Assembly (NCBI GenBank): GCA_019448385.1
Contig: JAGTXO010000055.1
Location: forward strand, 1 to 64,000
DNA length: 64,000 bases
Reading direction: 5' to 3'
DNA from: Diacronema lutheri
Taxonomy: Eukaryota > Haptophyta > Pavlovophyceae > Pavlovales > Pavlovaceae
Shown here: piece after piece, positions 1-37,879 of the stretch
Layout: every line of letters starts with the position of its first letter
How positions within the stretch are numbered: position 1 is the stretch's first letter
Notes under the pieces: generated by a model
Told to the model about the DNA's origin: nothing
The model's database searches: none
What the model saw: only the letters and a program-made list of their open reading frames with translations
Translations under genes and position numbers: made by a program

Positions 1-2620
1 GGCCGTCGCCGCGCCGCTCCCCCGCCTCATCGTCGTCGTCGCCGCCGCCGCCTCCGTCGCCGTCGCCGTCGCCGTCGCCCTCGCCGCCGCCGCCGTCGCC
101 GCTGCCATCGTCGTCGTCGTCGTCGTCGCCCTCGTCGTCGCCCTCGTCGTCGCCGTCGCACTCGTCGTCGCAGTCGTCGCCCTCGCCGTGCACCATGCGC
201 TCCTCACGCTCCCACACCTCGCCGCGCGCCCACCAGGCGAGCACGAGGGCAAAGCGCTCAGGCGTCGACGTGGTGTCGCGCCCGGCCGCGTGCGCCGCCA
301 TGTCGTGCACGTCGTAGAAGATGTTGCGCGCGGCGTTGTAGTCGCGGTGCACGGGCTTCTTGCCGCCGTTGCACGCCGGGCAGATGACGAGCGCGTGCAC
401 CGTGCGCGTGCCGCCCTTTGCCACGGGCAGGCGCGGGTTCTGCGCGAGCTCCGCGCCGCAGCGCTGCAGCCTGCCGCCCTTGGCGAGCCGCGGCATCGAG
501 CAGTGCATCGACGTGTACGGCTCGGGCACGAAGACGGCCGCGACGCCGCGCCGCCGCAGCTCGCGCAGCAGCCCCACTTGGAAGGCGGGCGGCGCGCCCT
601 TGGGCTGCGCGCCCTTGTGGTCGCGCAGCCACTTGCCCACGCACACGAGCAGCCGGTCGCGCGTCACGCCGTCGACACAGTGCGCCGCGATGAGCGCCTC
701 GGCGACGCGCGCCGCGTTGGACCGCCCGCCGCTGTCGCGCCGCCAGCGCTCCTTCCGGCGCGCCGGCGCGTCGTACACGTGCTCGGCGGCGCGCTCGCGC
801 ACCCGCGCGCTCTCGCGGTGGAAGGCGTGGAACTCGCCCTCGCCGAGCACCTTGGCGCTGTGCGCCTCGCCAAGCCGCGCCTCGTCCGCCTCCACGCTGA
901 ACTCCTCGCCGCGCCCGTCCTTGCGCACGCGCCGCCGCGCCGCGTTGGTCTTGGCCGTCTCGCGCGCAAAGCCCGCGGCGCGCGCGCGCGCGCGCTGCGT
1001 GAACTGCCGCCAGACGGCCGCCCGCCCGACGTGCGCAGAGTAGGTGGTGATGTTGCCCATGTTCGGGTCGGCCGCGACGACGACCGCCGCCTCGACGTCG
1101 ATCGCCCGCCGCAGCTCGGAGCCGAGCGCGACGGCGATGCGCCCGTCCGGCCGGCGCCAGCGGTGCAGGACGCCCGAGCCGCCGGCCGGCGCCTGCGCCT
1201 TCGGCACGAGGACGGTCCCGACGGCGTGCACGGCGACGCCATCTGTCACCACCGACTTGACGGGCTGCCGGCCCGGGAGCGGCACGCGCGGCAGCGGCGC
1301 GAGGCCAACCCACGAGCGCCGCGCGTGCCACGGCAGATCGGCCGGCGGCCGCTCGCGCCCGGCGTAGTCGAAGACGCGGTTGGAGATGTCGAAGCGCGTC
1401 GCAAAGACCGCGTACCTGACGCGCACGTCCGACATCGGCGGGGTGTTGCCGTTTGTGCCTGTCCACTTGATCGGCTCGCCATCGTGGTCGCGCAGGTCCA
1501 GCGCCTTGAGCCGCGCGCGCAGCTCCTTGCGCTCGTCATCCGAAAGCGTCACCCAGATGGCGCTCGCGGCGAGGCGCACGTTGCGCGGCACCTGCGCGCA
1601 GCGCGCGGCGCGCGAGCGCGCGGGCGCGTGACCAACCTGGCCGCGGGGCGGCGCGCACGGCGGCGGCGCGCGCGCTTGGGCGCTCGGCGGCGGCAGCGGC
1701 AGCCACGCCTCGCGCGCACATTGTGCGTGCGCAGCGGCGCCACATTGTACCGCGGCGGCCGTCCGGTCAGCTGCGTGTGGATGTGCGCGAGCCGGCAGAG
1801 CAGCGCCTGCCCCTCGGCCACGTGCTGCAGGGTGCGGATCTGCACGAGGAAGTAGCGCGTCGTGTGCCGGTCGTAGTTCCACCTTTTCGTGGGCGTGCAC
1901 TTGTAGTCGATCTTGTGGAGGACCATGTCGGGCAGGTGGCGGTCGAGCGCGGCGGGGCAGCCGACGCGCGCGCCCTCCACGTCGCCGCGCAGCAGCCGCT
2001 CGCACAGCTCGCGCACGCGCGCGTTTCGCTGCATCTCGGGCAGCGCGACGAGCGCCTCGTCGCGCTCGACTGCCGCGCGGACGACGTCGCGGAGCAGCCC
2101 GTTCACGACGCGCGATGGATGCATCAGGCACGCGGTGGACACCTGCGTCGCCTCCGCCTCGAGGATCTCCGTGAGGCCCACCGCGCAGACGGGCTGGACG
2201 CCCTCGGCCATCTCGCCGACGGCGCGCGCCGTCGCCGCCTTGGTCTGCGCGGCGGCTTGCTCGGCGGGCTTGCCTCGGGGCGCTGCACCGTACGTGCTCT
2301 CGTCCTTGTGCCAGCTGATGGCCGAGAAGATCGCACGGACGGTTCCCTTGTCCATCGTGGTCGACGTGTGCACGCTGGTCGACGGGCCGCCCGACGCCGC
2401 GCCGACGGCCTGCGCGCTCGCCACCGCAGCCTCGTCGCGCACCACCTTGTTGATGACGCGGTACGCCTGTGTCGTGAGCCTGTGCACGGCCGCCGCGATG
2501 CGCCGCAGCTCCTTCCGCGCACCGGGCTGCGCCGTCACCGCCTGCGGCCCCGCGTTGAGCGTCGAGCGCTTGACCACGAAGCCCGGGAGCACGCTGACGC
2601 GCGTGCGCGCCGTCGCGCCG
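1..2620 (-). other. Fanzor (TnpB-like, RNA-guided nuclease family) domain
   Basis: N-terminal Fanzor half lies at about 2620-1720 and the RuvC half at 1592 to beyond 1. After splicing, the sequence around the junction reads PLRTHN then VPRNVRL, the usual Fanzor core join. A TDG block follows (VVTDGVAVHAV). RuvC-I is AADPNMGNITTY (Asp at 1069-1067). RuvC-II is VPEPYTSMHCS (Glu at 523-521). RuvC-III is HRDYNAARNI (Asp at 343-341). Cysteines in MHCS, RCG and CPAC form the zinc-finger insert. Fanzors are eukaryotic TnpB relatives, shown for some members to be RNA-guided DNA endonucleases. All catalytic residues are present. The acidic Asp/Gly C-tail is unusual. The guide RNA would be expected at or beyond the gene's 3' end, outside this window. 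Confidence 0.88.
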
Positions 2621-5600
2621 CCGGCGGCGCGCGCGCTCGGCGCAGCGGGCTCGTCCACGCGCGCGCGCTCGACGCCGCGCGCGCGGGGAACGCTCGGCGC
2701 GCGCGCGCCCGCGGCGTCGCGCGCGCTCGCGGCGGCACCCGCCGCGGCGCGCTTGCCCGCGGCGCCCGACTCGCCGTGCGCGCGAAGCGGCGCCGACGCC
2801 AATGCCGACGCCGCGCCCGCGCCGCCGCTGCCGCTGCCCGATACGCCCGCGCGCCGCTTCTGCTCGTCGCGCGTCTTGCGGAACTGGGCGACGAGGTCGC
2901 TGCTCACGTTGGCCTCAGGCTCCCACGTGTCGGCGCTCTCGTCGTAGCCCCGCCACCTGATCCGGAACTGGAACGTCACCTTCTTGCCCGCCTTGCGGCG
3001 CTCGTCGACGACCGCCTCGACCTCGTACGTGCGCGCCTCCTCGTCGACGCTCGCGCCCGCCGCGCTCGCGCCCGTGTCCGGCCACCCAGCGACCGTGCCG
3101 CCCAGCCTCTCGGCGGCCGCGCGCAGCTGCCGCTCGCGCTGGGCGGCCGCGGCGCCTCGCGCGACCAGCGCGGGCAGCATGCCCGCGCCGCCCGCGAGGC
3201 CGTGCGCGCCGACGCTGGCGGTCATCAGCGCGTCGAGGCACGCGAACGTTGCGAGCGCACGCGCGCCATCGTCGCCGCCGCGCGGCTGCGAGCGCACGAC
3301 GGGCGATGGCCGCGGCTCCCCCTCGGCCGCGAGCAGCGGCCAGATCGCACTGGCCAGCGCGACGGCATGCGCGCCGACCGCGACGGCCACGTCCGCGTCG
3401 AGCGGCGCAAAGTCGTAGCGCACGAGCGCGGCCGGGCGCGAGTCGTCCGTCGGCCGGTCGGCGACGAGCAGCCCGACCGGGCGCGGCGGCTCGCCGGACG
3501 GCGCGGCGACGGGCACGCAGAGGAGCACGACGAGCAGGCGCGGCGTGCCGCCGAGCAGCGCGCGCGCGGCATCCGCCCCGTCGGCTCCGCCGCGCGCGGC
3601 CGCGGCGAGCAGCTCGGCCGCGCGCGTCGGGCCCAGCGCCGTGCGCGCGTCCTTGCGCGCGCGTGCGCGGGCCGTGTACGCGGCGCAGGCGTCGTCGAGC
3701 ACCGCCGCGCTGGGCGCGGTGCCAGTCGTCGCCCACGCGCGCAGCGCGTCGCGCACCCGCGTGACGATCGCCTGGTCGACCGCCGCCTCGCCGGCAGCGT
3801 GCGCCGGCGCGCACGCCGGCGGTGCGGCGGCAGGCGCGAGCGCGGGCGCGCCGTCGGCGCCGTCAACGCCGACGGCGCCGTCGGCGCGCCGCCACGCGAG
3901 CTTCGCCTCGATCTGCTGCCGGACGGCGTGGCAGTGCCGGTCGATGCCGCGCGCGTCGTCGAGCGCGGCCAGCGCGTCCTCAGCGGCGGGACGGCCGCTC
4001 GCGTCCGCGACGGCCTGCAGGCAGAGCAGCGCGGCCGCACGCGCGTTGCACGCGCTCTGCGGCTCGGGCGCGAGCGCGAGCTCGAGCTCGAGCGGCGACG
4101 CGCCTCGCGCCGCGGCGATCGCGTCCATCAGCACGTCCAACCGCTGCACCAGCGCCCTGTGCGCGTCGCGCGGCGCGCCCGTCGACGGCGCGCGCGAGCG
4201 CGTCGCCACGAGCCCGAGCGCGCGCGCCGGCGCGCCCGCCGGCGTGTGCAGCACGAGCAGCGCCGCGCCCGCCAAGCTCGCGTTGCGCGTGACGAGCGCG
4301 AAGATGCGCGTCGCCTCGTGCGCGCCCACCGACGCCCAGATCGCAGCGCGATCGGCGTCCGTCTGCGCGTCGCACAGGTCGCGCACGTCGTCCGGCGCGA
4401 GCAGCGCGCCGCCGCCGGCGGAGCGCGCGACGATCGCCCGCGCCTCCGCCACGAAGACGGCCTGCGGCAGGTCGGCGTGGCGCGCGTCGACGATGGCGCG
4501 CGTCGCGTGCACGCCGAGCTCCACGCCGCGGTAGAAGGCGCGCGCGTTGGCCGCGCGCGCGTGCGCCGGCCGTCCGTCCGCGTTGCGCCTCGCGCGCGCC
4601 TGCTTGCTCGTGCGCGCGAGGCCGTCGCGTGGCGGTGGCGGCAGCGTGGCGAGGAAGCGCGCGGCGGGCGGCGGCGCGCGCACGCCGCGCTGCCGCCGTG
4701 CGATGGCCGCGAGCCGCCGGCCCGCCGCGCTGCCGCCCGCGCCGACGTGCTGCCGGCGGCCGAGCGCCGCCGGTGGCGGCGGCGGCGGCGGCGCGGCGGC
4801 GGGCGGCGGCGCGACGGCGGGCGGCGGCGCGGCGGCGGGCGGCGGCGCGGCGGTGGGCGGCGGCGCGGCGGCGGGCGGCGGCGCGGCGGCGGGCGGCAGC
4901 GGCGGCGGCGCGGCGGCGACGGCAGCACCAGTCGGCTTGTCCGCCCACGCACCCGAGACTCTGTCCCAGACCTTGCCCCATGGCGCGCGCCCACGCGGCC
5001 GCGCGAACTGCCCCGGCTCGAGCGCCTGGCCGCGCTTGGCGGCGGCGGCGGCGGCAGGGGGCGGGCGGCCGGCGCGCCAGTCGAAGACAGGTGCAACCGT
5101 GGCGGCAGGCGCCGAGTGCCGCGCGTCGGTCACAGAGCGCGTGGTGCGCGCGGCGACCGTGGCACGCCTGGCGGGCGGGCGGTGAGCAGCGCCCGCCGGC
5201 GCGCCGGCGGGCGCGGCCGCCTCGAGCCCGGCGGAGGCGCCGCGCTTGCGCTTGCGCGTGCCGCCGCGCGTGCGCCTGCGCGCGCGCCCGCCGCGCGCCC
5301 GTTCGGCCTGCGCGTCGCCAGCCGCGTCGCCGGCCGCGTCGCCGCGCCGCACGTAGACGACCGCGAACGCCTCCTCGCCGGTCCCGTCGACGCCGCCGCG
5401 CGCGCGGCGCAGGACCGACCGCCACTGCAGCCGCCGCGCGCGGCCGGGCTCGCACGCAAACCAGCGCCCACCGCGCCTGACGACGGCCACAAAGTCGTCG
5501 TCGCGCCGCCCGCGCCGGCGCGTGCGCAGCAGCACGCACTGCACGTCGAGCCAGCCCTCGTGCCAGTCGGCCGTGCTGGGGGCGACGCGAATCGACTGCG

Positions 5601-8600
5601 GGAGCTCGACGCCAAAGCCGGCGAGGCGCACGATGTGCGCGACGATGACGCTCGAAATGGCGGGGGCGCTCGACGGGTCGCCCGCTGCAGCGAGCACCGC
5701 CCCGCCCCAGTGCTCACGCGTGACGCAATCCGCGTCCTCGACGTGCACGTGCGCCACGCTCGCGCCGAGCTGGTGCAGCAACGCGCAGATGTCGGCGTCG
5801 ACCGTCCTCTCCTCCTCGGCCGCCTCGGCCGTGCCGCGGGCGGCGGCGTCGCCTGCCGGCTGCCCGAGGTACGCGATCGCCCGCTCGACGGCCGCGCGCT
5901 CCGCACGCGCTGCGCTGTCGATCGCCGCATTGCCGACGGGCGCGCGCAGCGCCGCGATCGCGTCTTGCAACGCCGTCGCGTCGCCCGTCGCCGCCGCCGC
6001 CGTCACCGCCGCCGCGCTCGCGGTGCCGTGCGCGACGGCGTGCAGCGCGGCGGCGCGCGCGGCGGGGATGCGCCCGTCCAGCGCGAGCACGAGCGGCGGC
6101 CCGGCCGGCGTCTGCTGCCGCCGGTGCCGCCGGCTCGCAGCCGGGTGGTCGGCGCGCGCGCGCTCGAGCCGCGCGCGCCGCTCGACGACGCGCGCCCAGA
6201 AGGCCTGCACCCTCGGCTGCGCGAATGCAAGCCAGCCGGCGCCGCGCGTCACGACGTGCACGACGATCCGGTCCTCGTGCCTGAGGTACTGCACGTAGAG
6301 CGCTTTGCTCACGCCGAGGACGTGCATGCCGAGCTGCAGCTGATCGCGGTGCGGCTGCGGCGGCCCGTCCTCGTGCGCCGTGGCGCCCGCCTTGGTGAGC
6401 GTCTTCACCTCGACGAGGACCTGCTCGTTGTTTTCGGGGAGGATGGCGAGCCCGTCCGGCGAGAAGGCGAACGGCGCGCTCTTGTCGTGCGGGTCCGCAC
6501 GCACCATCGGCAGGTTGCACACGACGGTGATGCCGTACGCGGCCGCCAGCTTGCGCAGCGCGACGGCCTCGCCGAGGATGCCCGCGGTCGTCGCCTTGGT
6601 CCGCACCTCGCGCCGCCGCCGGTGCACGTACTCGTCGGTGAGCGTCTCGTGCGCGACGCCGGCGTTGTCGTTCACGACGTCGCCAACCTTGCTGCCCGTG
6701 ACCTCCTCCCATCGCTCGTCGTGCCAGCGCGGGCTGCGCTGCGCGGGCGCGCCCGCGCCGACGGCGTCGAGCACGCGGCGCAGCGCTGTGCCGTCGGGCG
6801 CAGCAGGCACGCGCGCGCGGTCCTGGGCCTCGCGAGCGTCGAGGACGCGGCCCGTAGTGGAATCTTGGGGTAGGTCGAGCTTGCTCGCCTCGCCGTAGCG
6901 GCTCTCCAGCTGGCGCGGTGCGTCGGCAGGGCCGCCGTCCGTGCGCGCACCCGACGCGCCCGCCAGTGCACGCGGCGCAGCGTCCGAGGCGCCCGCCGCG
7001 CCCGCGCCGCCGCCAATCGCGCCAGCGCACGCGCGCGCCGCGACCTGCGGACGGCCAGCCGCAGGGACCTCGTCCGCTCGGCCGGCCGCTGCGTCGGCCG
7101 TCCGCTTGGCCACCTCGCGCACGTCTCCGAGCGCGAGCGTGGCTGGCGCCGTCCAGCTCCCGTTGCGTTTGTCCCAACATTTGAGCAGCCCGCCAAGGAA
7201 GGGCGTGCCCGTCGGGCGGTCCTCGGGCACCTCCGCCAGGATCGCGTCGACGCGCAGCGCGGCCGCCACATCGCAGAACGCGCGCGCGGCGCGCGCCATC
7301 CGCTCGGCGCGCGCGCCGCCGTCGTCCGCCGCGCGGCGGATGGCGTGGCTCACGTGCGCGACGCGGAGCGAGACGACGGCGTGCGCCGGCGCGTCGGCGC
7401 CCGTGCCGAGCGTGTGCCGCCGGATGGCCAGCTGCCCATCGCCCATGCGCGGCGGCAGCGACGCGCACGCCGCGACGGTCGTCGTGCCGGCCGCGCTGTC
7501 GCACAGCCAGCTCGCCTCGCCGCCGCCCGCAAACTCAAAGGTCGCGAAGCCCTCGCGGCCGAAAAGCGCGACGAAGTGGTCGAGCACCGCCTTGTTGATC
7601 GCGCGCGCCGCCGGCCGCGTCGATGCGCCGCGGGCAGCGCCACCCGCCGCGCCGCGCGCATCGCTGCACGTCGCAGGGCAGGTGCAGCCGGACGCGCGCA
7701 CGCCGTCCGACCGCGTCCGCGGCAGCTCGAGCTCGCGCACCTTGGGGCAGAACCAGAGCGGGTTGGACGCCTCGAGGCACAGCACGACGAGCCGCCCGTC
7801 CGTGCCGGCCAGCGCGCGCGCGTCGCGCAGCAGCTCGACGGCGAGCTCGGACGTCGCCGCGTGCACCGCCGGCTCGCCCGTCGCGCGGTCGGGCGGGAAG
7901 AGGCCGCCGCCGACGAGCGGGCTGGGGCAGCGGCCGAGCATCACGAGAAGCGGCGGCGGCGGCGTCTGCGGCGCCTGCTGCCCGACCGCAGCCGCCGTCA
8001 GCCCGGCCAGGTCGGAGCTCGTGCGGAGGGCCTTGAGCGCGACGCGCGAGCCGGTGCCCGCCTGCTCGGAAAACGTGGCGAGCATGGCGCACGTGCTCGC
8101 CCTCGCGCCGCACTGCCAGCTGACGCGCGCGAGGAGGCCTTCCAGCGTGTCGTTTTCGCGCGGCCGCGTGACCGCGTCGAGCGCCGCCGGGCCGAGCTGG
8201 AGGCTGCCGGGCGTGACGCACAGCACCGCCTCGTGGTAGGCGCGCAGCAGCTCCCTCGGCAGCTGCTCGGCGGGCGTCGCCGCCTGCCCGCCCACCCACC
8301 GTGCACCGTGGCCGCCGTCGCCCGCGCCCGCGAGCCGGACCGCCGGCCCGCCCGTGATCGCCGAGGTCGGTGGCGTGCCGAGCGCGTCGACGAGCGCGCG
8401 CACGGGCGCGACACGCCTGCGCGCAGCGTCCGCGCCGACGGCGAGCGCGGCGATCTGAGCGCCGTCCCATGCGCGCTCCCTCGCGTCGTCCCGCGCGGCC
8501 GCCGGCGCGGCGCCCGGCCGCGCGCCGGGCGGCACCGCGCACGCCGCCGCGACGACCTCCGCGCGCGCGCCGGCGGCGTCGGGCGCGTGCAGCTGCGCGA

Positions 8601-10440
8601 GCGCGCCAAAGAGCGCGGCGGCCGAGCGGTAGCGGCCGTGCGCCGCGACGAGCGCGTAGAGCACGCGCAGCGCGGCCACGCCCGCCTGGTCGGGCGCGTC
8701 GCCAGCGATTTGCTCGACCTCCCACGTGCGCGTGGGCGGCGGGCTGCCGTCGGCCGGGTCCGGACGCAGCGCCCACGCGCGCTCGACGATCGCGTTGAAC
8801 ACGCCGTGCGCGGCGCCCTCGTCAAACTCGGCGGCGCCCGCCGCGTGCGCGCACCACCCGTGCACGCGCGACGTGGGCGCGTCCACGGCGCGCTGCACGA
8901 CGAGCACCGCCGGCCGGTCGACGCAGCCGAGGCTCACCGCCGCGTGCTTGCCCTCGAGCAGCGCCGCCGCCGCAGCCTCGACCAAGGCGTCATCAGGCGC
9001 GTCGCCGACGACGACGGCACAGCCGTCGCCGTACTCGGCCTGCATCGCGGCGACGCACGACGCGACAAAGTCGCCGCCCGCGGCCGCCGCGTGTCGCGCC
9101 GCCAGCATCCGGCGCGCGATGGCAAGCCAGACGTACTCGGCCGGCGCGCGCGCGGCGCGCGCGCGAGGCGCGCCGGCCGCGCCGCGTGCGCCCGCGCGTG
9201 CGCCTCCAGCGGCCGCAACGGCCGAGGCGGCTGGAGCGGCGGTGAGCGTGCGCCGCGCGCGCTTCGCCGGCCGCGTGATGGGCGATGCACCCGCCATCGC
9301 ACCGCCCGCAGCAGCCGGTGCGGCCGCCACAGCGCCCGCCGCAACGCCACTCGTCACGACGCCCGTGGCGGGCGGCGCGGCGGCGGACGTGGCCGCCTCG
9401 ACGGGCGTCGCGCAACTACCGCCAGCGGTCGCGGACGCGCCCGGCGACGCGTCGGCGAGGAGGTGGCGCAGCACGCCGCGCGCGAGCGCGACTCGCACGG
9501 CGAGCGTCAGCGCGCGCAGGCGGTCGGAAGGCGAGGCGTCGCGCTCGGCGTCGGCGGACGTGGCGGCAGCAGGCGGGGCGGCGGGCGGCACGGCGGCGGG
9601 CTGGGCGGCCGCCGGCGCAACCTCGTCGGCCTTGGCCAGCCAGACGAGCCCGGCGACTGCGAGCACGACGCTGTACGCGCCGACATCGTCACCCGCAACG
9701 CGCGCCAGCCGGGCGTGGGCGTCGGCCTCGGACACGGCGACGTGGAAGAGCACGTCGTCGCGGGCAGCTTGCTCGGCAAACTGACGCAGCTGCTTGGCCA
9801 TCGTCACGCCGGCGACGCACGCCTCGCCCGCCTCTGCCTCGACCTGCTCGTCCTGGCCGATGGCGGACGCGCCGGCCTCGGCGCCAGCGTCGAGTGTCCG
9901 GCGGCGCTCGAGGGCGAAGCCACGCACACAGACGCGCTGGAGGCCGCCGAGCGCGCCCGCCTTCTCGTGCAGCGCGCACGACAGCTCGACCACCGAGTCC
10001 ACGCGCCTCGCGGCGGCGCCCCCCCGCTCGCCGCGCGTGGCCGCGCGCACGACGAACACCGTGAATTGCGCGCGCTTCGCCGCGCGCGCCGACGCGCACG
10101 CGTGCTTCAGGAGCCGGCAAAGCGCGGGCCTTTGCGCCGCTGCGCCCCGCGTGCACAGCAGCAGTTGGCCGCGCTCGTCGCCCAGCTCCTGCTCGACGGC
10201 GGCCTCGAGCGCGTCGTCCGTCAAATCGCCGTGCTCCGTCGAGGCGAGCGCGCGCGCAGCCGCGAGCGCCAGCTCGCCTGCGCCCGCGCGCCGCCGGCGG
10301 CGCGCACCGGCGGGCGCGTGCGGCGCCGACGCGTGTGACGACGCCGCCGCGTCCGCGCGCGCACACGCGGCGCGCAACGCCTCACGCGCCGAGGCGGCCG
10401 CGCGCGCCCTGGGCGCGAGCTTCAAGAACGTGCGCGCGGC

Positions 10441-10519
<79 letters not shown>

Positions 10520-13500
10520 TCGCCCGCGTCGCCGGCCGGCGGCGGCGGTGGCGGCGGTGGCGGCGCGGCCACGGCGGCGGCAGCAGCGGCGGCGGCGGCG
10601 GTGGCGGCGGCGGCGGCGCCCAGCGCGGGCGGCGGCGGCGTGGCGGCGGCGGTGGCGGCGGCGGTGACGCCAGCGGCGGCCTTGGCGCCGCGCGTCTGCG
10701 GCGGCGTTTCGGCGCGATCGGGGCTGCCCCCGCCACGCACCGCGCTCGTGACCGCGCAGACGCCGCCCGGCGCACGATCGCTGGCCGCGCCGGTCAGCGC
10801 GACGCGGAGGCGCTCGCCGACAGCGTACATGTCCGCCACGCTGAACGTGCGCGGCGCGGACGAGCAGCCCGCCGCGGCGAGCGCGTCGTTGAGCGCGCCC
10901 ACTATCGCGAGGCCGCACGTCGCGCCACGCTGCGCCGCCTCGTTGAGCAGCAGCGCGCGGCGCACGCGCGAAATGTCGAGACCCGCCGCGTGCAGCGTGG
11001 CAGTTATCGCCTTGGCGAGCATGAGCGCCTGCCTGCAGGGCGACGCGAGCGTGTCGACGAGCACCGCGTCGTAGCGATGCTCGCCCGCGCGCGCGACGCG
11101 CACAAGGCGCAACGCGGTGAAATGGCCGGAGGCGAGCTGCGCGCCGTCGTCACCGCCCGCGCCGCCGCGCTCGTCCGACGGGCTCCACACGCCGATGACA
11201 GCCTGCGTTGTCGCCTCGCTGCGCAGGCGGTGCAGCAGCGCGGCGCGCTCGGCGTCGTCCTGAAACACCGCGGGTTGCGCGGCGAGCGGCACGTGGCAGA
11301 CATGCCCGCCGCCGGCCTGCCCGTGCACGCGCAGCACGACCTCGCAGCACGCGTCGACGGTTGAGGCGAGCATGTCGCCGCTGGCGATGCGCTCCACCTC
11401 TGCCTGCGGGAGGCCGGCGCTCGCGGCGGCGGCGGCCAGCCGGCGCGCAGCCGCGTCGCCCGCCCACGCAAGCAGCGCCGAGTTGGCGGGTTGGAGGGGA
11501 AGCTCAAGGGCGGCTGGTTCGGTGGCGGTAGCCTCGTTGGCAACGGGCACGTTGGCGGTGCGCGCGTTGGCGGCGGGCGCGGCGGCGATGGCTGGTGGGG
11601 CGGAAGACGCGCCCGCGGCGGCGGGCGCGGACGCGGCAGCGGCAGCGGCTAGTGGGGCGGGGAAAACGCCGTCGGTGGCAGGCGCGGAGGCGAATGCAGG
11701 AGCAACTAGTGGGGCGGGAAAATCGGCGGCAGGCGCGAAGGCGGATGCAGCAGCGGCTAGTGCGGCGGGGAAAACACCGTCGGCGGCAGGCGCGAAGGCG
11801 GATGCAGGAGCGCCCAGCGGGGCGCAGAAAACACCGTCGGCGGCAGGCGCGAAGGCGACAGCAGCAGCGGCCAGTGGAGCGGAGGCGCAGGGCCACGCGC
11901 GCGCCAGCCGTGCAAGCCCAAGCCGCGCGCGAGCGACGCACGCGCCGATGGCCGAGGCGGCGGCGCAGGCCACGACGTGGCCTGGCACCGGTGTGGCCAG
12001 CCGCTCGCGGGTGTGCACGTCGAGCCGCGCCCCACGCCAAGAGCGGCGGCGCGCTGAACGGAGGCGCGCGACCCCGATCGATCCGCCCGCGCACGCGCGC
12101 GCCGGCTCAGTGTGGCCAACGCGCGCCGCTATGCAAGGCGCGCGCGCGATAACGGCGGCTGTCGGCCGTGGCGTGCGCGTGGCGGCGCCGCGGCGACGGG
12201 CGCGGCACACGAGCCGCTCGGGCGCGCCGCCGCCGCGCGGCACGATGTCGAGCAGCACGGTCACGCCGCGCGCGCGCGCGACCGCCGTGCACGCGAGCCG
12301 CACGGGCAGCGGCGGCCCGTCCGGGCGCGCGAGCGCCGCCACCTCGGCGTCGGTGAGGCTGTGCAGCTCGCGGCGCGCGCGCGCGAACGCGGCGATGTCC
12401 GCGCGCAGCTCCGCGTCCGTGCCGAGCGCGGCACGCGCGTGCACGGGGAGCGACGCGCGCAGCGCGTGGAGCACGCCGCCGCGCGCGCCGCGCGGCGCCG
12501 GCGCGCGCTCGCGCTCAGCGCGCGCGGCGCGCGTGAGCTCGCGCACCGCGCGCGCGAGATTGCGCCGCGCGGCCGCGACGGGAGGGCTAGGTGCGCGCGC
12601 GCGCCGGTTGTAGCGCGGCCGCGCCGAGTCGAGGGGCGGCGGACGCGGTGCGTACGCCGCGGCGCGGCCCGCGCGCCAAAAGGCCGGCGGCGGGCGCAGC
12701 TCCGTCGCGTCGACCGCGGCCGCGAGCGCGCCGAGCGCGGCGTCGCTGTCGCCCGCCGCGTCGGCCGCGTCGACGAGCACGAAGAGCGCGCCGAGCGCGC
12801 GCGACGCGGCCGCCTGCGCGGCGGTGGGGCGGGCGCAGGCAGCGACGCATGCGGCCGCCATGCCGCGCGCCGCGGCGAACGCCGGTGACGTGACGGCCGC
12901 GCCGATGGCAACGGCGGCGGCGGCGACGGTGGAGGCGGCAGCGCCGGCGATGGAGGTGGCAGCGGCGGCGGCGCTTGCCATCGCGCGGCGCGCGAGACGC
13001 GAGGCGCCACCGACCGCCGCCGCCGCAGCGCGCGCTGCGCGCGCGCCGGTGGCGCGCATCGTCGCCGCGCCAGGCGCCGCCGCGCCGACGCCGCCGGCGC
13101 CCGCGCCGTCGCCGCTCTCGGCCGTGCAGGGCTCCGATGGCGAACCCGGCGTGCGCTGGCGCGTGATGCGCGCGCCGAGGCGCGCGCTCCGCGCCGCGCG
13201 GCCGGCGACGTCGAGGAAGCGCCGTGCGCGCGCCGCGCGCAGGCCACGCGCGCGCGGCGGCGCACCGACAGGCGCCGAGCGCCGCGGCGCGCACGCCGGC
13301 GCGTCGCTGTCGGGTTGCGCAGCGCGCGCGCGGGAACTCGGCGCGGCGTGTGCGGGCGGCGGGCGCGCGCCCGCGCGGCGCAGAGGCGCGAGGCGCCGGC
13401 CGCAGACGAGGCGTGTGCGCAACCAGGACGGCGAGGGCCGCAGGGCGCCGTCGACGTCGCGCATCGGCGGGCCGCGAGCCCGCCGCGCAGCCGTGCGGCG

Positions 13501-16500
13501 CGCGCGAGGCGCTCGGCGGCGCGCGCGCCGCACGGCGCGCGCGGCGGCGCGCACGCCAGCGACGGCTGCGGCCACGCCGCGCGCCAACACGGCCGCGGCG
13601 TGCGCCATCGCACCGAGCACGGCGCGTGGCGCGCCGAGCAAGCGCAGCAAGCGCGACGCCGTCGCGCGCGCCGGCGCACCGTGTGCAGGGGCCTCGCCAG
13701 CGCCAGCACCGACGCCGCCATCGCCGCAGCCGCAGGTGGCGTCGCCGCCGCCGCAGGCGTCGCGACGGACGCCGCCGCCGCCGAAACAACCGCCGCACAC
13801 GTCGCCGCCGACGTTGCCACCCCAGCCGCCGTTGCGTGCGCAGGTGGCTGCGGCGCGTGCGTGCGGGAGGCGTGCCGTGCGGCGCGCATCACACGGGCTG
13901 CGCGACGCGAGCGACGCCGCCGGGGTCCCCGCTGCGCCAGGCGCGCCGTGCGCGCCAGCCTCGCCGGCCTCGCCGGCGCGCGGTCGCGCGCTCGCCTCGA
14001 CGTGGCCGCCTCCGCCGCCATCGCCGCCGTCGAACCGGGCGGTGGAGGGCTGCCGCTCGAACCGCTCGTCGGCGTCGGCCGCCACCGCCGCCTCGCGCTC
14101 CGCCGCCGCGGCGGCCGCACGGCGCGCGTGGCGGAGCGCGCGGCCGCCGTCCGCTGCGCGGCGTGGCGGCGCGGGCGCGGGCTTCGGCGCGCGCGGCCCC
14201 TCGGCGCGCTCGCGGAGCACGGCGAGCGGCGTGCCCGTGGCGACGCTCGTGCAGACGCGCCGCAAGGCGGCGCTTACGCACGCGTGGACGACGCGCGCCG
14301 TCCGCTTGTCGGCGGCGCGCGCGGCGCGGCGCGCGGCCTTGGCGGCGGCCTTTTTGGCGCGCCTCTGCTCCGCCTGCTCCGACAGCGCGCGCGCCTGGCG
14401 CTCGGCTGCGAGCGCGTCCTCGGGCGAAACGGTCGGCCTCGGCGGCCGCGCGCGCGCGCTGCGACGCTGCGCGCTGCGGCGGTCGGACGGCGGCTGCCGC
14501 GGCGGCGAGGACGGCGAGCGCGAGCTCGGCGTGGGCGACCAATCGCCGCTGACGGTTGCGAGCGGCGCAAACGGGTTGTCGTCCCCGCGACCCGCGGCGT
14601 GCGACAGTGCACGCGGCGTCGGGCGCCGGCCGACCGCTGGCGGGCCCCACTCGGACGGCGGCTCCGAGGGCGAGCGCGCCGTCGGCGCCGCGCGTTGCGC
14701 GGCCGGCGGCGCCTCCCGGTCCAGCGCCGCCTGCTCTCTCGCCGCGGCCTGCTCGTCACCCTCCGGCACGCCACGCGGCGCGAGCACCGCGGTGGCGCAG
14801 CGCGTCGCGTTGAGCAACGCCGCCTCCATCTGCCGCACGCTGGCCTTGGCGCACGCCACACCCTCTCTCGCCCGGCGCAGCGCCTCGTGCGCGCGGCGCA
14901 CATCCGCGTCGGCATCTTCGCGCATGCCAAAGTGCGCCTGTTGCAGCCGCAGGTCCGCAGGGCGCCCCTGCGCGCGAGGGGCACGGGCGCGGCGGCGCGC
15001 AGGTGACGGAGCTGGCGCGCCGTTCTGCGCTGCGCGCACGCCAATCGACGGGCGCGCGCGCGGCGGGGCGCGCGCGCGCGCGCGCGCGCGCGCTGCCTAC
15101 CCAGCCGCCGGCCGGCTCGCGCGAGCGCGCCAGCTGCTCCGCCGCCTCGGCGTCGAGCACGCGCTGCTGCGCCTCCTCCTCGCCCAGTGCAGCGAGGTGC
15201 AGCCGGCGGGCTGCCTTGCGGCAGTTGCCCTCCGCCTTGCCCACGGCCTTGCGCGCCGCGTCGACGGGGTCGTCGTTGGCTCTGGCGCGCCTGCGCTTGC
15301 CCTTGTCGGCGGGCGGCGGCTTGGCGCGCTGCAGCGTGCCGAGCGCGTCGTCGGCTCCGCGCGCGGCCGCCCGCGGGCGGCGGGCCCCAAAAAGCGCACC
15401 GGTCGCCGTGCGCGCCGCGCAAGCAACGACCAGCGCTGACATGCCGGCGAAGACCGCACCGCCCAGCGCCACGGTTGCCACGATGCGCAGCGTCCCGTGC
15501 GCAAGCTGCGCTGCCTCCGCCGCTTTGGCGGCCTCGCGCGCGCGCGCATCGGCGGCTCTCATCTCGTGCAGCAGCCCGGCCGCGCCGCTCGCGCCGTCGC
15601 GGCCGCGCGCGAGCTCGCACAGCACCGCCGCCGCGCGCCGCGTGGGCTCGCGCGCGAGCAGCTGCGCGCCGCCGTCGGGGCGCAGCTTCTCAACGAACTC
15701 GACAAACGTCGCGTCGCGCCAGAGGGACATGCGGAAGGCCCTGTGCACCGCCCCCTCCTGCTCGCGCATCCGCCGTGCCGCCCGCCTGCCGTCGCGCGCG
15801 TGCGCGTGCGCGGCCGCGTCGAATCCCGCGACGCCGCGCTGCGCGTCGCGCGCGGCCGACGACGGCGCCGCCGCGCTGCCCGCCAAGGGCGCCGCAGCGG
15901 CGACGCGCGCGTGCGGAGCGACGGGATCGCCGGCGGCCGGCGGCTCGGCGCGCTGCGGCGTGCCGTTTGCTCCGCGCGCGGCCGTCCCGGGGGAGATGGC
16001 CGCGATGGCGCCGCCAGCCGCGCCGCGCGCCAGCCACGCGCATAGGCTGCCGACGAGCTCGCCGAGACCCCCGACGGTCGCCGCGGCGGCGAGTGCGCCG
16101 GGCTTGCCGGCCGACAGCGGCTCGCGAGCGTCGTCGTCGCAGCCGCCGGCACCCGTCTTGGCGAGTGCGTCGCGCTCGCCCTCGACGCCCGCCACGACCG
16201 CCGCCCCTCCGTCGTCCGCCGCGCCGGCCGCGCGCGCGGCCGGGCGCAGAGGAGGCGTGCCGGTGCAGCCGTCGCCGCTCGTCTTCGCCGTTTCCTCCAC
16301 TTTGGTCACTTCGTCGCCACCTGCGCCATCTCCGACGCCGGGGCCCTTGGTCACGCTTGCCGCCATGCGCGCCGTGCCCGCCGGCCAGCCCGCCGACTGC
16401 TCGAGCGCGGCGGCGAGCGGCGCGACGCGCGTCGACTCGGGCGCGCTCTCGTCATCGGGCTCGAGCGCGTTGTGCAGGCGCGCGAGCGCGCGCTCGACGG

Positions 16501-18775
16501 CCGCGGCGCCACTGCCGGGGGCGCGGCTCGCCGCGCGCACCGCGCGCCGCCAGGCCGGCGCGAACATGAGCGCCGGCTCGAGCGCCGCGAGCGCGCGCGC
16601 CTCGCGCGCGTCGCTCGCGCCGAGGCGCGGCGGCACGCGCGCGGCTCCGCGCGGCGCGGTGCCTCGGAAGCGTGGGCTCAGCGTGTAGGCGAGGTGCTGC
16701 GGCACGCCGCGCGCCTCCGCGCGCGCGCGTCCGTCCTCGACCTCGCGCCGCGCCTTCGCGATCGCCGGCGTGGCGCGCGCGAGCCAGTCGGGGTCGGCGG
16801 GCAGGTGGATCACGACGAGAATCGGCGCCCAGTCCAGCCGCGGGTTCTTGTGACGGTCGGGCACGACCCACACGAGCAGCACCGTGCCCTCCGCGCCGCA
16901 CGCCGCCTCGTAGATCCTGGGCTGCGAGCGCCAATCGGGCCTGACGCGCAGCGCCCGCGCGTGGTCGATGGCGGCGGCGCGGTCGCCATTGAAGTGAACC
17001 GTCGTCACCTCGCCGATGACGGACCGGCCGGACCGCCAGCAGAACACCGCGTCCGCCGACCCGCCGGCGATGGCCGCGAGCGATTCGGGCGCGGCGAGCC
17101 GCGGCAAGCCCTCGAAGGCGGCAAAGTCCTCGTGCGCATTGTACACGCCGCCCCAGCCGTCGTGCGCGTACGCGCGCGCGGCCGCTCGTACCGCGCGCGG
17201 CTGGTTCTCCACGCCCGACGTCATGTGCCATGTCGTCCCCGCGAAGCCGGGCTCGCCCAGCTCGGCCCGCACGACGGTACCGTACCCCGCGCCCTGCGTC
17301 GGGGCGGCGAGGTGGTGCATGCCCGCGCCGGTCACGCCCTCCGTGCGCTGCCGCGTGACGATCGTGCCCGTCGCGTGCGCGAAAAGCGTGTCGACCACGG
17401 CGGGCGCGCGCCCGCTGTTCGCCCGTAGCCGCGCCCTGCCCGCTTTTAGCTGCTCGGGGTCCTTGGCGTCGTACACGCGCGCGTCCGCGTCGCCCTCATC
17501 AGGCGCAGTGTAGACGCAGCGGCGTTCGAGCGGCGCCGAGCCACCGCCGTCCGCCGCCGCCGGCGAGGTTGGTGCCGCGCCCGCCGCCACCGCGCTCGTC
17601 GCCGCCGTGCCCGTCGCCACCGCCGCAGCCGCCGCGCCCGCGGGGTCGTCGTCCCCGTCCTCCGCGCCCTCCCCGTCGTCAGCGGTGGTGGCGTCGCCAT
17701 CGTCCCCGTCGCCCTCGCCCCCGCCGAGGCTGCTGAATGGTCGGGGCCCCCACGCCGAGGCGGCGCGCCGCTGCGGCGCACGCGGCGGTGGCGCTCGCGA
17801 CGGCGGCCTTGGCGCCGCCGCGCCGCGCGGCCTGGCCGCCGTCGACAGCGCGCGGCCTGCAGCGCCCGTGAGCGCGTCGAGCGCGGCCGTGCGTGCGATG
17901 CGGTCGTCGGGCGCGCGCAGCGCCGCCTCGACGGCCTGCAGCAGCCCGTCGGGCGCGGATCCGCCGACACTGGCATCGCACGCCTCGGCGAGCCGCGCGG
18001 CCTCGGCGAGCCGCGCGGCCTCGCGGGTGAACGGGCCGAAGCGCCTGGCGCGGTCGCCGAGCAGAGCGCCGATGGCGGCGCGGAGCGTGCGCGCGCGGGT
18101 CTCCTCGTACGCGGCCGTCGTGAGGCGCGCGAGGCGCGCGTCCAAAGCCTTCTTGATGTCGACAAGGACACTCGCGCGGCGGCCGTAGAGCGTCGATGCG
18201 CTCGCCACGACCTCGGCCGCGACTGTTGCCGCGGCGAAGCAACACGCGGCCCCACTCTGCGGGGGCGCCTTGAAGGCATCGATGGGCGGCGCTGTTCTGC
18301 CGATGCGCTGCGCAAGCTTCTTGATGAGCACGCCGGCCGCCGTGGCGTACGCCGATTCGCCGTTGCCCAAGGTGCGCGAATCGGCGAGCAGGGCGAGCGC
18401 GGCGCCGGGCGGCGCGCCGCGCTGCGCGGGCGGCGCGAGGAGCAGGTACGCCGCCGTCCAGTGCACGAGGCCGCTGGACGCGCGGAGGCAGAGCGGTAGC
18501 ACGACCACGAGCACCTGCCCAAACCGGTCCGCATCCGCGCATGCTTTGCGCAGGTTGCGCAGCGCCACCTTGAGCGCATGCTGCGAGCACCCCGTGTCGC
18601 CCACCCTAACCCTGCTCGTGCCGAAATCCGCGTAACGCAGCAGGGCGATGAGGCAAGTGGATGGGACCACGTGGGGGTGGGTATCTCCCGGCGACAGAAT
18701 GGTGCTGAGGGCCAGCGAGAAACTGTCCGAGCCGCCCCGCCCGCCGGGCAAAGCGTCCTTCACGGAGTCCTCCAT
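1..18775 (-). CDS. Giant multidomain protein: Ulp1-like protease ... YqaJ nuclease, chromodomain, C-terminal Fanzor nuclease (3' end beyond window)
   Basis: Model: complement(join(<1..1592, 1720..14967, 15101..18775)). The ATG at 18775 opens 1,225 codons. A 133-nt intron (donor GTAGGC at 15100, acceptor CGCAG ending 14968) and a 127-nt intron (donor GTGCGC at 1719, acceptor CGCAG ending 1593) join three frames at codon boundaries, and in both cases the homology or coiled coil continues across the junction. Order N to C: C48/Ulp1-like protease (H105, D132, Q173, C179); one hydrophobic helix and a coiled coil near 15.5-14.7 kb; Arg/Ala-rich stretch; second C48-like module near 11.1 kb; poly-Ala and Pro/Ala-rich linkers; YqaJ nuclease near 6.5 kb; degenerate protease-like modules near 4.3-3.2 kb; chromodomain near 3.0 kb; Fanzor. 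More than 6,000 residues with an acidic Asp/Gly tail still open at base 1. Seen: the open frames and motifs. Inferred: that they form one polypeptide; unseen introns or separate transcripts are possible, since chance ORFs are long at this GC. Confidence 0.55.
2850..3035 (-). other. Chromodomain inside the giant protein
   Basis: In frame with the Fanzor half, the translation contains FQFRIRWRGYDESADTWEPE preceded by YEVEAVVDERR, the classic chromodomain core (aromatic cage positions Y/W, WRGY and the DTWEP motif). Chromodomains bind methylated histone tails, and chromoviral integrases and some transposases use them to target chromatin. Here it lies immediately N-terminal to the Fanzor, separated by a Gly/Ser/Ala-rich linker. 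Role in steering the nuclease to chromatin is inference. Confidence 0.85.
3100..4500 (-). other. Two degenerate C48-like protease modules (tentative)
   Basis: Between the Pro-rich linker and the chromodomain the giant protein has two segments resembling the C48 fold in layout: hydrophobic strands, an Asp-bearing strand, then a helix with a conserved-looking entry such as PQSACNARAAALLCLQ near 4.05 kb, which fits the Gln...Cys helix of Ulp1-type peptidases. The second segment (about 3.5-3.2 kb) keeps the strand pattern but I cannot place a full triad. They may be inactive tandem copies. This is pattern recognition only and could be wrong. Confidence 0.3.
4760..4916 (-). repeat. Coding GCC/GGC-rich tract (Pro/Ala linker)
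   Basis: Near-perfect 15-nt periodic repeat encoding alternating APPPA and AAPPP units in the giant protein, between the middle and C-terminal modules. Probably a flexible spacer that expands by slippage. Confidence 0.75.
6140..6860 (-). other. YqaJ / lambda-exonuclease-type nuclease domain
   Basis: The frame contains the family's ordered signature: TAGILGEAVALRKLAA (conserved Glu), AFSPDGLAILPEN (Asp), VLVEVKTLTK (Glu-x-Lys) and RDQLQLGMHVLGV (Gln helix). This is the PD-(D/E)XK core of YqaJ viral recombinases, which resect double-stranded DNA 5' to 3' for single-strand annealing. All metal-binding residues are present. It sits mid-protein, between degenerate protease-like segments. Involvement in recombinational integration or repair of cut targets is inference. 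Confidence 0.85.
10434..10520 (-). repeat. Poly-alanine-coding (GCC)n tract
   Basis: About 29 consecutive triplets encoding an uninterrupted alanine run, flanked by a proline run and further Ala-rich sequence. Simple trinucleotide repeat inside the giant gene, in frame. Confidence 0.8.
10690..11400 (-). other. C48/Ulp1-like cysteine protease module
   Basis: The translation gives SGHFTALRLV (His), DAVLVDTLAS (Asp about 24 residues on) and then AAQRGATCGLAIVGAL (Gln followed by Cys), the order and approximate spacing of Ulp1-type SUMO proteases. It resembles the module at the protein's N-terminus (VHWTAAYLLL, LLADSRTL, PPQSGAACCF), suggesting an internal duplication. Substrate unknown. Confidence 0.6.
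11590..11880 (-). repeat. Coding minisatellite, AFAPAADGVF-type repeats
   Basis: Four to five diverged copies of a roughly 60-nt unit encode variants of AFAPAADGVFPAPLAAAA. Unit length keeps the frame. It lies just upstream (N-terminal) of the second C48-like module. Confidence 0.75.
18200..18520 (-). other. N-terminal C48/Ulp1-like protease core
   Basis: Residues about 85-190 of the giant protein: hydrophobic strand, His105-Trp106, Asp132, Gln173 and Cys179 six residues later. This order and the Gln-to-Cys gap of six match the deSUMOylase family. Being N-terminal on a more than 6,000-residue chain, it could process the chain itself or host conjugates; both are inference. Confidence 0.6.
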
Positions 18776-20130
18776 CTGCAGACTGTGGGCACGTCAGTGT
18801 CCGGATGGCGGCCCGGATGATACTTGGGAGAATTTACATGATGCCCTGGAGAATGCCCCGCTCTCCCACAACCAGGACCCGCCAGCGCGCCGAGCCTACT
18901 CGTTTGCCCGCGCCGCCTCTCTTTGCGCGCCCGAGCGCGGCCTCCGAGCGCGGCCAACGTCCTCCGGGGGCGTGCATCGTGGCTGCTCGGAGGGGCTGCG
19001 ACGCGGCGAAAGCTCGCTGCGCGGCCGCAACGTGAGCGCGCGCGCGCGGCCGCGCGCCGGCCTGCGCTGCTCTGCACGGCCGCGCGCCGGCCTGCGCAGC
19101 CTCGTCGCGCAGCGTGAGCGCGAGCGCGCGCGAGGTGAGCTCGGCGGATGGGTGCGCGGCGGCGTTGGCGGCGGGTGCGGCGGCAGGCTGGGCGGCGGGT
19201 TTGGACGGAGAGTGTCGGGGAAGAACGGGGCGCATCCTGGCTGGGAGTTGGACGGCGCCCACCACGCGCTGGCGGATCCTGGTTGCCACCACCACCCCCC
19301 CCCCCCCCGGAGACGAGGACCAGGGGCATGGCCGACTCGCTGCGCCGCACAGCGCGCGGCGCGCGGCATGCTGCGCGACCTCAAGCACATCCAGCCGCGC
19401 TCCGCCCACGCAACGCGCGCAATGCCGCGTTGCACTGCAGGTGTGCACGTGCGGCTCTCACGCGCACTGTGTTGCACGAACGGCATCACGCCACCGAGCT
19501 GCGTCCGGACCACGCGCCGCGCGCAGGCGACCACACAGGGGCGCGCCGCGCCGCGCGTGCGCGCCCTCGCAACCGTTGCAGCACGCTCTGCCTTGCACTG
19601 CGCCGAGCCGCCGCGCGCTGTGCGCGTGCATGCAGGGCGCACGCGTGCGACGAAGCGCGCGCGCGGCGAGGCGCGCGGGCGGCTCGCTGCGCGGGCGGCA
19701 ACGCGCCCAGCTGCGCCCAGGCCAGGCGCGCGCCCGCGAGTGCCACCGGGACGCACTGCCCCCGCCGGGGTCGCCGCGCGCTCTGTGTGTGCGCTCGCGC
19801 GCTGCGAGCGCGGCGGAACGTTCGTGCATGGCGCGAAGAGCGCGGCACCCGAAGACGGCTGCCCCGAGCCCGCGCCGGGTGGCAGCGAGCGGCGGCACCT
19901 CCTCGGCGAGCCCGCCCCGCGCCTTCCCCTCCACGTGGCGTTTTGAGGCAGACGGACACGCGCCCACACTGCGACTGGGCACGCTGCTCGAGGCAGACAC
20001 GCACCCAACGCGCGCGCACCACGCGCCCGCGTCGGCGGGCCGGTGTGAACGAGCGAGAGCTCGGTGTCGCCAACGGGGGCACGGGCGCGACTTCGGTCCG
20101 CCTCTCGACGGACGCAGGCGACGCTGCCGG
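18776..20130. other. Upstream region of the giant gene; no gene recognised
   Basis: Holds the presumed promoter of the giant gene next to 18775 and Arg/Ala-rich ORFs on both strands without recognisable motifs. A C14 run lies at 19295-19308. I see no supported gene. Confidence 0.4.
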
Positions 20131-21400
20131 GAACTTCCCCGACGCCTGCACATCCAGGGCTTCGAGGTACAGAGCTGGGCAACAGTGCCGCTCGTCACCG
20201 ATGAGGCGGCCAAGCTCGCTATCCTTGCTGCCCTCGGCTCCACCAAACAGCCGGGCGACCCAACGGTTCGTGATCGCCTGGCCGCCAGGTGCGAACCGCG
20301 CCCGTGCAAGCGCTTCACCCGCATTCTCCGCCCCGCTGCGGACGTCCGCCTGCCGGCCGCGAACACGGCCGGTGCGCGTTGCCGCCTGGCCCAACACGAA
20401 AACCCGCCCGCCCCCGAGGCCGCAGGTCCTACCTGCCCAAGCGCAGCCCAACGGCACGCAGACAGCCCGCCTTGGCAACCGACTCGTGCGCGAGCGCTCC
20501 GCCCTCCACAAGAGCCTGCCCCACGCCACCGCCGACGCGGAGCCAGCGCAGCCGACGCCCCTCCGCGACGCTCGCGCCGCAAGGCGCAAGGGCCCCGGCG
20601 AGACGGCGTCAACCAAGCCCGCCGCTGGCACAGCGCCGGCACCCGGAGCCCACCCCAAGCCCCCGCGCACGCCTCGCCCCCCCCCCCCCCCCCCCCCCCC
20701 CCCCCGATCGGCGGACCGATTGCGTTTTGGTGCGCCAGGCTCAATGCGCCATCGCAGTGGCGGGCCCGCAGACGCAGACGCTGACATGCCCAACGCTGGG
20801 CACTGAGGCCGCAGGCCGGCCCTCCTGGACCTGGCGGGCGAGCTGCCCGCGCAGCGGCCACGCGAGCCTCGCACTGACCGTGGCGGTCGCTGCCACCGTG
20901 ATAGCTGCGGGTGCGGCGGCCTTGGCCCCAACCCCATCATCCGTCTTCATCCCCGCCCTGCTCGCGCTCGCGGCCTACGTCGGCAATCCCTGCACCGGGA
21001 TCCGCCCCGCGAAGTCCACACAAGACTTATCCGTGCTGCACGCCAGCCGCGCGCGCCGACGCGCGCCGCTCCCACACGCTCACCTCCGTTTCCGCGGGCG
21101 GCCCAACGCCCCCCCCCCCCCCCCCCCCCCCCCCTCCCCCCCCCCCCCCCCCCGGCAGGCGGCCATCGAGCCGCATTAGCACACCCGCCCGGGGCCTCCC
21201 GCCGCACCCGCAGCGGCTCGGCGCCTTGAATCCTCCCGTCCCCCGGGGTGAGGCCTTCAACCCGGGCCCAGCGCGCTCCGACTGCCTCACGCGCGCCAGC
21301 GCCAACCTCGGCGGCATGGTAGACCCCGAGCGAAAAGCCGCACTTCTCGCCGTCCTCGTCAGGCGCAAGTACGTTATCCTGCTCCTACTGCCGACGCGGC
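20130..21400 (+). CDS. Possible multi-exon hypothetical membrane protein
   Basis: Three plus-strand stretches look protein-like rather than random. About 20148-20300 gives WATVPLVTDEAAKLAILAAL. About 20850-21000 gives a hydrophobic pair of segments (SLALTVAVAATVIAAGAAAL then FIPALLALAAYVGN), likely two membrane helices. About 21210-21390 gives MVDPERKAALLAVLVRRK. They are in different frames and separated by C-rich tracts at 20677-20705 and 21109-21153, which in this window tend to lie near intron ends. Start, splice sites and product are not established. It is the only candidate plus-strand gene inside the left block. Confidence 0.25.
20677..21153 (+). repeat. Two long poly-C tracts
   Basis: C29 at 20677-20705, and C26 plus C18 around a single T at 21109-21153. 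If the hypothetical plus-strand gene here is real, both fit the intron-end placement seen elsewhere. Confidence 0.8.
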
Positions 21401-21491
21401 TCCCGCGCGCGCGGACTACTACGCCGGGCAGATCGCCGCAGACGCACGTGAGTGCACACGTGCGGACAAGGCGCACACGCTCGACGTCCAG

Positions 21492-21696
21492 TTAGCGCAC
21501 GTGCACGTGCGCGCCACTGGTCACATTTGAGCGTCCGTGCTCGCCCACAGCGTCGCCATCCACAAGATGCGCGCTGGAGCCATCCAAGCAGGGCTCTGCC
21601 TGCTCGGCTTCCGCAAGGCAATTTGGGCCGCGGACAGCGGACAGCGGACGGCGTGCGCGTGCGAGGTGCGAAAGGAGGAAGAAGGTAGGGAGAGTT

Positions 21697-21743
<47 letters not shown>

Positions 21744-27073: not shown

Positions 27074-27284
27074 GGTCGTTGTGCGCGGGAGATCACGCTG
27101 CAGGCGGCTCCACAGTAGGTTCGAGAAAAAAAAAAGCTGGGCCAACGGTCAGTCGAGCGCCACAAGCAATCCTCGGGAGCCGGTGGCCCAACCCAACCCA
27201 ACGATCTTCGTCGCCACCCTTCGCGCGTTTTCCGTTCGCGCCCAAGCAGACAATGAGACCACAATCTCGGTGCTGCTCGGCGCG

Positions 27285-29762: not shown

Positions 29763-29795
<33 letters not shown>

Positions 29796-37840: not shown

Positions 37841-37879
<39 letters not shown>

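Follow-up and report, generated by a model that had tools for sequence, protein, structure and literature searches.

Fanzor1 transposons, as far as the accessible portions of the published surveys describe them (Bao and Jurka 2013; Saito et al. 2023; Yoon et al. 2023), are eukaryotic mobile elements with a RuvC and zinc-finger nuclease core, a rearranged catalytic glutamate, and a non-coding right end near which the core lies. In these sources, Fanzors are separate proteins (for example, SpuFz1, with a locus of about 2.1 kb), and the guide RNAs of TnpB and Fanzor nucleases have been located in the non-coding right end (PMC10432273, PMC10711439). What Fanzors contribute to eukaryotic mobile elements is not yet settled. 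We describe here a mobile element from the haptophyte Diacronema lutheri that resembles the Fanzor1 transposons in its eukaryotic host, its Fanzor-type RuvC and zinc-finger core, the rearranged glutamate, and the position of the core near a non-coding right end. Unlike them, it is about 31 kb long, carries the core as the last exon of a gene of about 6,215 predicted residues, has no recognised transposase, and reads DPN at RuvC-I. The stretch analysed, hereafter the window, comprises 64,000 nucleotides at the very start of contig C79 (JAGTXO010000055.1). According to our preferred reading, this is a recently amplified, high-copy DNA element whose main gene most likely encodes a single predicted protein with Ulp1-type, RecE/YqaJ-type, chromodomain, and C-terminal Fanzor-type parts, and which works by the guide-and-copy scheme proposed below. 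We hold this reading as a whole with moderate confidence.

To place the locus, we searched the D. lutheri genome assembly (43,492,796 bases in 103 contigs), whose source we take to be strain NIVA-4/92. The element reads on the minus strand, and its left boundary at 30514 is common to the window and copies C34, C36, C71, and C82 among the five other copies compared. Copies C71 (31,016 bases) and C36 (31,004 bases) are full length. C82 has an internal deletion, in C34 about 7.7 kb is replaced by some 2 kb of unmatched sequence, and C13 is 5'-truncated. Because base 1 of the window is the first base of the contig, the ends of both the element and its main gene lie outside the window. Across the genome, the Fanzor core is present in at least 101 copies, all at least 99% identical and one with an internal stop; this number (101 scored of 398 candidates) is a lower bound, since only the best candidates were scored. 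Of 40 scored left ends, at least 15 are separated from a scored Fanzor match by the distance expected of a full-length copy. The many copies and common element boundaries rule out a host gene, and they bear out an earlier first-pass annotation of the window, which had assigned the gene to a mobile element and had called for a search for further genomic copies.

At the left terminus, 29 of the 40 scored ends begin with C; in the other 11 the scored match starts one base later, and the four of these that were read have G as the first base. The right end, ...GACCATCTATAC, is identical in all 22 distinct copies read at this end; it is also written ...GGATTTGGCTTGACCATCTATAC, and two loci at contig ends (L005 and L007) do not match it. 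When the last 200 bases were used as a query, 40 of 40 scored matches spanned the entire query. Inspection by eye of 13 copies for which both flanks were read showed no target-site duplication and, at the termini, no inverted repeat beyond about 7 of 10 bases. A short direct repeat occurs at both ends (CTATA[TA]C in some left ends and CTATAC at the right, with a CTATA/TATAC core), and the palindrome GGGGCGCGATCGTGCCCC sits 28 nt before the right end.

Copies differ unevenly along their length. Over the last 405 nt, 11 of the 12 distinct copies compared share the same sequence. In successive stretches, C34 differs from the window at 54 of 1,496 positions (a stretch that holds a tandem repeat), 2 of 1,494, and 0 of 1,500, that is, by 3.6% in one 1.5-kb stretch and then by 0.1% and 0%. 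Such patchy divergence suggests recombination or conversion between copies. For seven of the 101 scored Fanzor matches (for example, those on C26, C29, C79, C83, and C90), a contig start is no more than 3 kb away, and these probably reflect assembly breaks in a 31-kb repeat rather than telomere-targeted insertion. Copies at C5:257856-279439 and C11:767391-799603 appear to interrupt conserved genes, which we take to be subtilase-like and sterol-desaturase-like, respectively. To restore the interrupted frames, 2, 5, or 8 bases are needed between the flanks, and no single target model is favoured. A further repeat family, whose end reads CGTTAGTA or a close variant of it, adjoins or lies near several insertions (C4, C8, and C13 flanks).

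The main gene of the element has three predicted exons separated by two predicted introns (Table 1). The first-pass annotation had proposed two introns of matching phase, and both are indeed GT-AG introns in phase 0. Its second junction, given as 1720/1592, needs a small correction: 1720 is the last base of exon 2, as proposed, and 1592 is the last intron base, with exon 3 starting at 1591. In copy C71, exon 3 has 574 codons and its stop lies 405 nt before the right end of the element. With exons 1 and 2 from the window and exon 3 from C71, the predicted product has about 6,215 residues (1,225 + 4,416 + 574). The splice-site sequences and open frames recur in both full-length copies, C36 and C71, in which exon 1 likewise has 1,225 codons, exon 2 stays open beyond the donor, and exon 3 comprises 574 codons. 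These 574 codons of exon 3 are open in all five of the other copies checked (C34, C36, C71, C82, and C13).

Very high GC yields many overlapping open reading frames (ORFs), and the first-pass annotation had itself named a chance run of long GC-rich ORFs as the alternative should there be no second copy. We find this explanation hardly credible, and four lines of evidence rule it out. The longest stop-free run, 4,515 codons, is twice the longest run in 300 Markov simulations (at most 2,202 codons in the 200 of second order and 2,205 in the 100 of fifth order). We also trained a codon model on two host ORFs that lie outside the element; scored in 600-base windows, it ranked the expected frame best in 53 of 61 cases (12 of 12 in exon 1, 37 of 44 in exon 2, and 4 of 5 in exon 3, where the winning frame is that of ORF P0003). 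All seven misses in exon 2 favour an antisense frame, three of them being ties to two decimals. In addition, domain matches fall in frame, and C36 and C71 carry the same open exons, which answers the point about a second copy.

The codon model also bears on how the exons are joined, because the frame preference shifts near both proposed introns, reaching up to the donor and resuming from the acceptor. The first ATG of exon 3 is at codon 53, downstream of residues conserved in relatives; independent initiation of exon 3 is therefore unlikely, and its join to exon 2 is well supported. Thus, the fused frame proposed in the first-pass annotation stands in exon 2, where the second Ulp1-type motif is followed by the exonuclease and then the chromodomain, and continues across a well-supported predicted intron into the Fanzor-type core. 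Exon 2 has an ATG at codon 15 (14925), so exon 1 could be a separate gene. Splicing and translation as one chain are what we infer from these frames.

At the C terminus, the predicted protein matches the Cas12f1-like_TNB profile (PF07282; 2.1e-6, 28.2 bits against a cutoff of 26.3). The published Fanzor motif, D-X(125,275)-[TS][TS]-X-X-[C4 zinc finger]-X(5,50)-RD (PMC3627910), is present as D355, followed after 184 residues by T540 and S541, the zinc-finger cysteines C544, C558, C584, and C587, and R596 and D597. Two further marks of Fanzors are a rearranged glutamate in the form E x6 C and a DPG triplet at RuvC-I (PMC10711439). The former is present as E537-PYTSMH-C544. The latter is not, so we call the protein Fanzor-type rather than a canonical Fanzor. 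A search of the PDB returned a Cas12f1 chain at E 0.37, and at 0.075 with an alignment, neither of which is significant.

Three proteins among 8,000 scored candidates match the Fanzor core: P0004 (99% identity), P0011 (45%), and P0012 (44%). P0004 comes from a source whose longest contig is 2,435 bases, and it is the sole match when the whole ORF is used instead of the core. P0011 and P0012 fall under the PF07282 cutoff and share the E x6 C arrangement; their RuvC-I triplets are DTG and DPG, respectively. Both are listed as proteins beginning exactly at the start of exon 3. P0004 is listed with an initial M where the window has GTG, so the listed starts look like the output of a bacterial gene caller. 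Scans of IMG/VR for a viral origin and of prokaryote genomes gave no relative.

Upstream of the Fanzor part, the chromodomain named in the first-pass annotation is confirmed by the Pfam Chromo profile and by matches to solved chromodomain chains with E values down to 8e-9. Its YqaJ nuclease also holds: the match to PHROG 434 (RecE-like; 5.9e-15) spans 52-240 of 372, with the TIGR03033 lambda-exonuclease (3e-5) and Pfam YqaJ (0.031) profiles both under cutoff, and we identified the D and E-V-K residues by eye in P0002, the exon 2 ORF. The Ulp1-like proteases are retained at the level of motifs. Exons 1 and 2 each contain one complete H..D..Q..C motif, against 0 and 1 of 500 shuffles, with a pattern set after the modules were seen; no Ulp1 profile in Pfam matched the protease modules up to an E value of 10. 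Further protease modules resemble degenerate versions by eye; of 28 pairs compared among the protease modules, 1 is above z 3 (3.4). Judging by its position, the last part of exon 2, for which Pfam gave no match, may be the N-terminal half of the Fanzor.

The first-pass annotation had left out two other genes of the element, a PIF1-type helicase and a USP-type deubiquitinase, which lie upstream of the giant gene on the same strand. The N-terminal stretch of the helicase gene matches nothing in Pfam, and the PDB chain closest to it is at E 0.88. Among the ORFs scanned, a subset of those in the element, none was recognised as encoding a transposase, an integrase, a Rep protein, or a reverse transcriptase. 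Since the PIF1 gene is spliced and the scan covered a subset of the ORFs, a diverged recombinase can be hidden in this gene or in the parts of the giant protein that have no family match.

Table 1. Features of the D. lutheri element in the window (positions in the 64,000-nucleotide stretch)
Feature	Position	Strand	Remarks
Mobile element	1..30514	-	Left end at 30514; right end about 502 bases past the contig start, according to the 31,016-base copy C71
Giant gene exon 3, Fanzor-type RuvC and zinc finger	1..1591	-	Runs on past the contig start
Predicted intron 2	1592..1719	-	128 nt, GT-AG, phase 0
Giant gene exon 2	1720..14967	-	4,416 codons
Chromodomain	2875..3027	-	P0002 residues 4005-4055; Pfam Chromo 5.7e-12, above cutoff
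RecE/YqaJ-type exonuclease	6175..6750	-	P0002 (exon 2 ORF) residues 2764-2955; PHROG 434 5.9e-15
Second Ulp1-type H-D-Q-C motif	10912..11124	-	Exon 2 residues 1282-1352; motif level only
Predicted intron 1	14968..15100	-	133 nt, GT-AG, phase 0; coding frame switches here
Giant gene exon 1	15101..18775	-	1,225 codons; includes a region without family match (residues about 480-690)
First Ulp1-type H-D-Q-C motif	18239..18463	-	Exon 1 residues 105-179; motif level only
USP-type deubiquitinase ORF	22145..23557	-	UCH 3.6e-8, above cutoff
PIF1-type helicase gene	24741..27073	-	Spliced; PIF1 1.5e-24 and 3.6e-14, Pif1_2B 5.4e-13
Nested palindromic (hairpin-like) repeat	27630..28516	.	Arm lengths 207 and 174 nt (97-98%)
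Possible small antisense gene near left end	28595..30150	+	Codon signal (model trained on the giant gene itself)
Left terminus	30508..30514	-	[C/G]TATATA then [G/C]GGCGCGG

Starting from the observed element, its copies and frames, and its chromodomain, exonuclease, TNB, PIF1, and USP matches, we favour propagation by an RNA-guided cut-and-copy process. In such a process, an RNA from the 405-nt right end, extending into the flank, would guide the nuclease to an unoccupied homologous site. With the flank past the right end as its guide, the nuclease would make its cut at the empty site. Once processed by the exonuclease and the PIF1 helicase, the break may then be repaired in a way that copies the element in from the occupied site. 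The chromodomain could tether the complex to chromatin, and SUMO or ubiquitin could be removed from host factors, such as those of repair, by the Ulp1-type and USP domains. A first insertion at a new site would need a recombinase, and none was recognised in the ORFs scanned. The uniform right end and the patchy divergence among copies are consistent with the trace expected of frequent copying between elements. If correct, the element would offer a natural case of an RNA-guided nuclease that is fused with parts for processing DNA ends and for targeting chromatin. The cut-and-copy idea is directly testable here, in a recently multiplied element of a culturable alga for which RNA sequencing data from three libraries are published (PMC8379373).

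Several results weigh against this reading. Recent spread, or ordinary gene conversion without any nuclease, gives the same pattern of divergence. The 405-nt non-coding right end, where a guide RNA would be expected, folds no better than shuffled sequences (z of -0.97 and -0.84) and has no Rfam match. The RuvC-I triplet in the window is DPN. Two structure models are poor, with mean predicted local distance difference test (pLDDT) values of 46.0 and 35.7. Among the copies, C34 has a stop after 1,380 codons of exon 2 and lacks an exon 1 start, and most of the giant gene is missing in C82 and C13. Where synonymous changes exist among the young copies, the ratio of nonsynonymous to synonymous rates (dN/dS) is 0.74-1.92, which, from few changes, indicates little purifying selection. 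Finally, the ATG at codon 15 of exon 2 means that exons 1 and 2 could be two genes.

This last point leads to the most serious alternative, which we rate below even and yet well within reach: the element is real, and the 6,215-residue fusion is not. Instead, there would be two or three neighbouring genes, exon 1 having its own stop, exon 2 starting from the ATG at 14925, and the Fanzor core being separate or cleaved off by the Ulp1-type modules. The frame of exon 1 does stay open past the donor, to 14756, the relatives P0011 and P0012 are listed with starts exactly at exon 3, and described Fanzors are separate proteins in the accessible text of the reports (PMC3627910, PMC10432273). Set against this are the absence of an ATG before codon 53 of exon 3, with conserved residues upstream of it; the bacterial look of the listed starts, as seen in P0004; and a codon bias that reaches the donor and restarts at the acceptor.

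Other alternatives concern the means of mobility. It is possible, if somewhat doubtful, that a Crypton- or Starship-like tyrosine-recombinase element with an unrecognised recombinase carries the Fanzor fusion as an accessory, as in Fanzor1s reported with Cryptons (PMC10711439). Short direct repeats at both ends, no duplication, and no long inverted repeats would fit such an element, and its large size is that of Starships. However, profiles recognised no tyrosine-recombinase domain among the ORFs scanned, the Starships described are fungal, and the H-x-x-R..Y pattern, which appears twice in the 7 sequences scanned (once within the exonuclease stretch and once where exon 2 ends), has no other support. 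We consider it unlikely that the locus is a Helitron-like rolling-circle element whose Rep part has diverged too far for recognition. Like Helitrons and Helitron2 elements with their RepHel proteins, it combines a PIF1-type helicase with the lack of target-site duplications and long inverted repeats, and it has a palindrome near its right end and a 5'-truncated copy, C13; Helitrons are known Fanzor1 carriers and undergo 5' truncation (PMC3627910). Yet profiles detected no HUH Rep domain in the ORFs scanned, two HUH-like strings (one each in exons 1 and 2) stand without other support, and the stretch before the helicase lacks a Pfam match and, as noted above, any significant PDB chain. The ends also differ from the 5'-TC and CTRR-3' of Helitrons, and asymmetric terminal inverted repeats (ATIRs) of the Helitron2 kind, looked for by eye only, were not seen.

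We also compared the locus with other large elements. Polintons, or Mavericks, are 15-40 kb long and encode a cysteine protease (PMC6431247); the element shares the large size and, at the level of Ulp1-type motifs only, the cysteine protease. It differs from them in that none of the ORFs scanned matches a PolB, DDE integrase, ATPase, or capsid, and in having no long terminal inverted repeat. Burro, a giant Gypsy-like element of planarians (same source), is likewise very large and carries ubiquitination-related domains. Burro, however, is a long terminal repeat (LTR) retrotransposon, and no reverse transcriptase was matched here in the ORFs scanned. Outside the D. lutheri genome, none of 1,409 scored candidates has the same domain order (the chromodomain and the following stretch in giant proteins). 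In the accessible open-licence literature, we found neither this element nor the fusion of a Fanzor to a protein of this kind described, although a description may exist elsewhere, for example in the supplementary tables of the Fanzor surveys. The main text of the D. lutheri genome paper, which gives 73.25% GC and 22.9% repetitive sequence for this species, contains neither of the word starts "transpos" and "helitron" (PMC8379373). A bolder claim would be that the element founds a new giant class, in which a single polyprotein of about 6,200 residues (SUMO protease, exonuclease, chromatin reader, and RNA-guided nuclease) itself propagates by cutting empty sites, resecting the ends, and having them repaired from an occupied copy, without a conventional transposase; we regard this as improbable at present.

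Near its left end, the element has a nested palindromic repeat, which also occurs in copies C34, C36, and C71 and looks like a hairpin-type small repeat. It lies beside a possible small antisense gene, whose ORF P0005 has no family match. A coding-like signal is also seen at 27155-27634 on the plus strand, possibly from a small spliced gene split by the palindrome.

To the right of the element, the window encodes Fumble, a kinase with PP2A B56, tubulin, CBF, and XPG, neighbours that fit a eukaryotic chromosome setting. The PP2A B56 regulatory-subunit match and the protein kinase match are in a single ORF of 1,228 amino acids (39846-43532, minus strand). Long poly-C tracts occur at 57160-57210 (51 consecutive C), 37844-37914, and 21109-21153, and the window ends, at 63936-64000, in five perfect copies of a 13-nt tandem unit.

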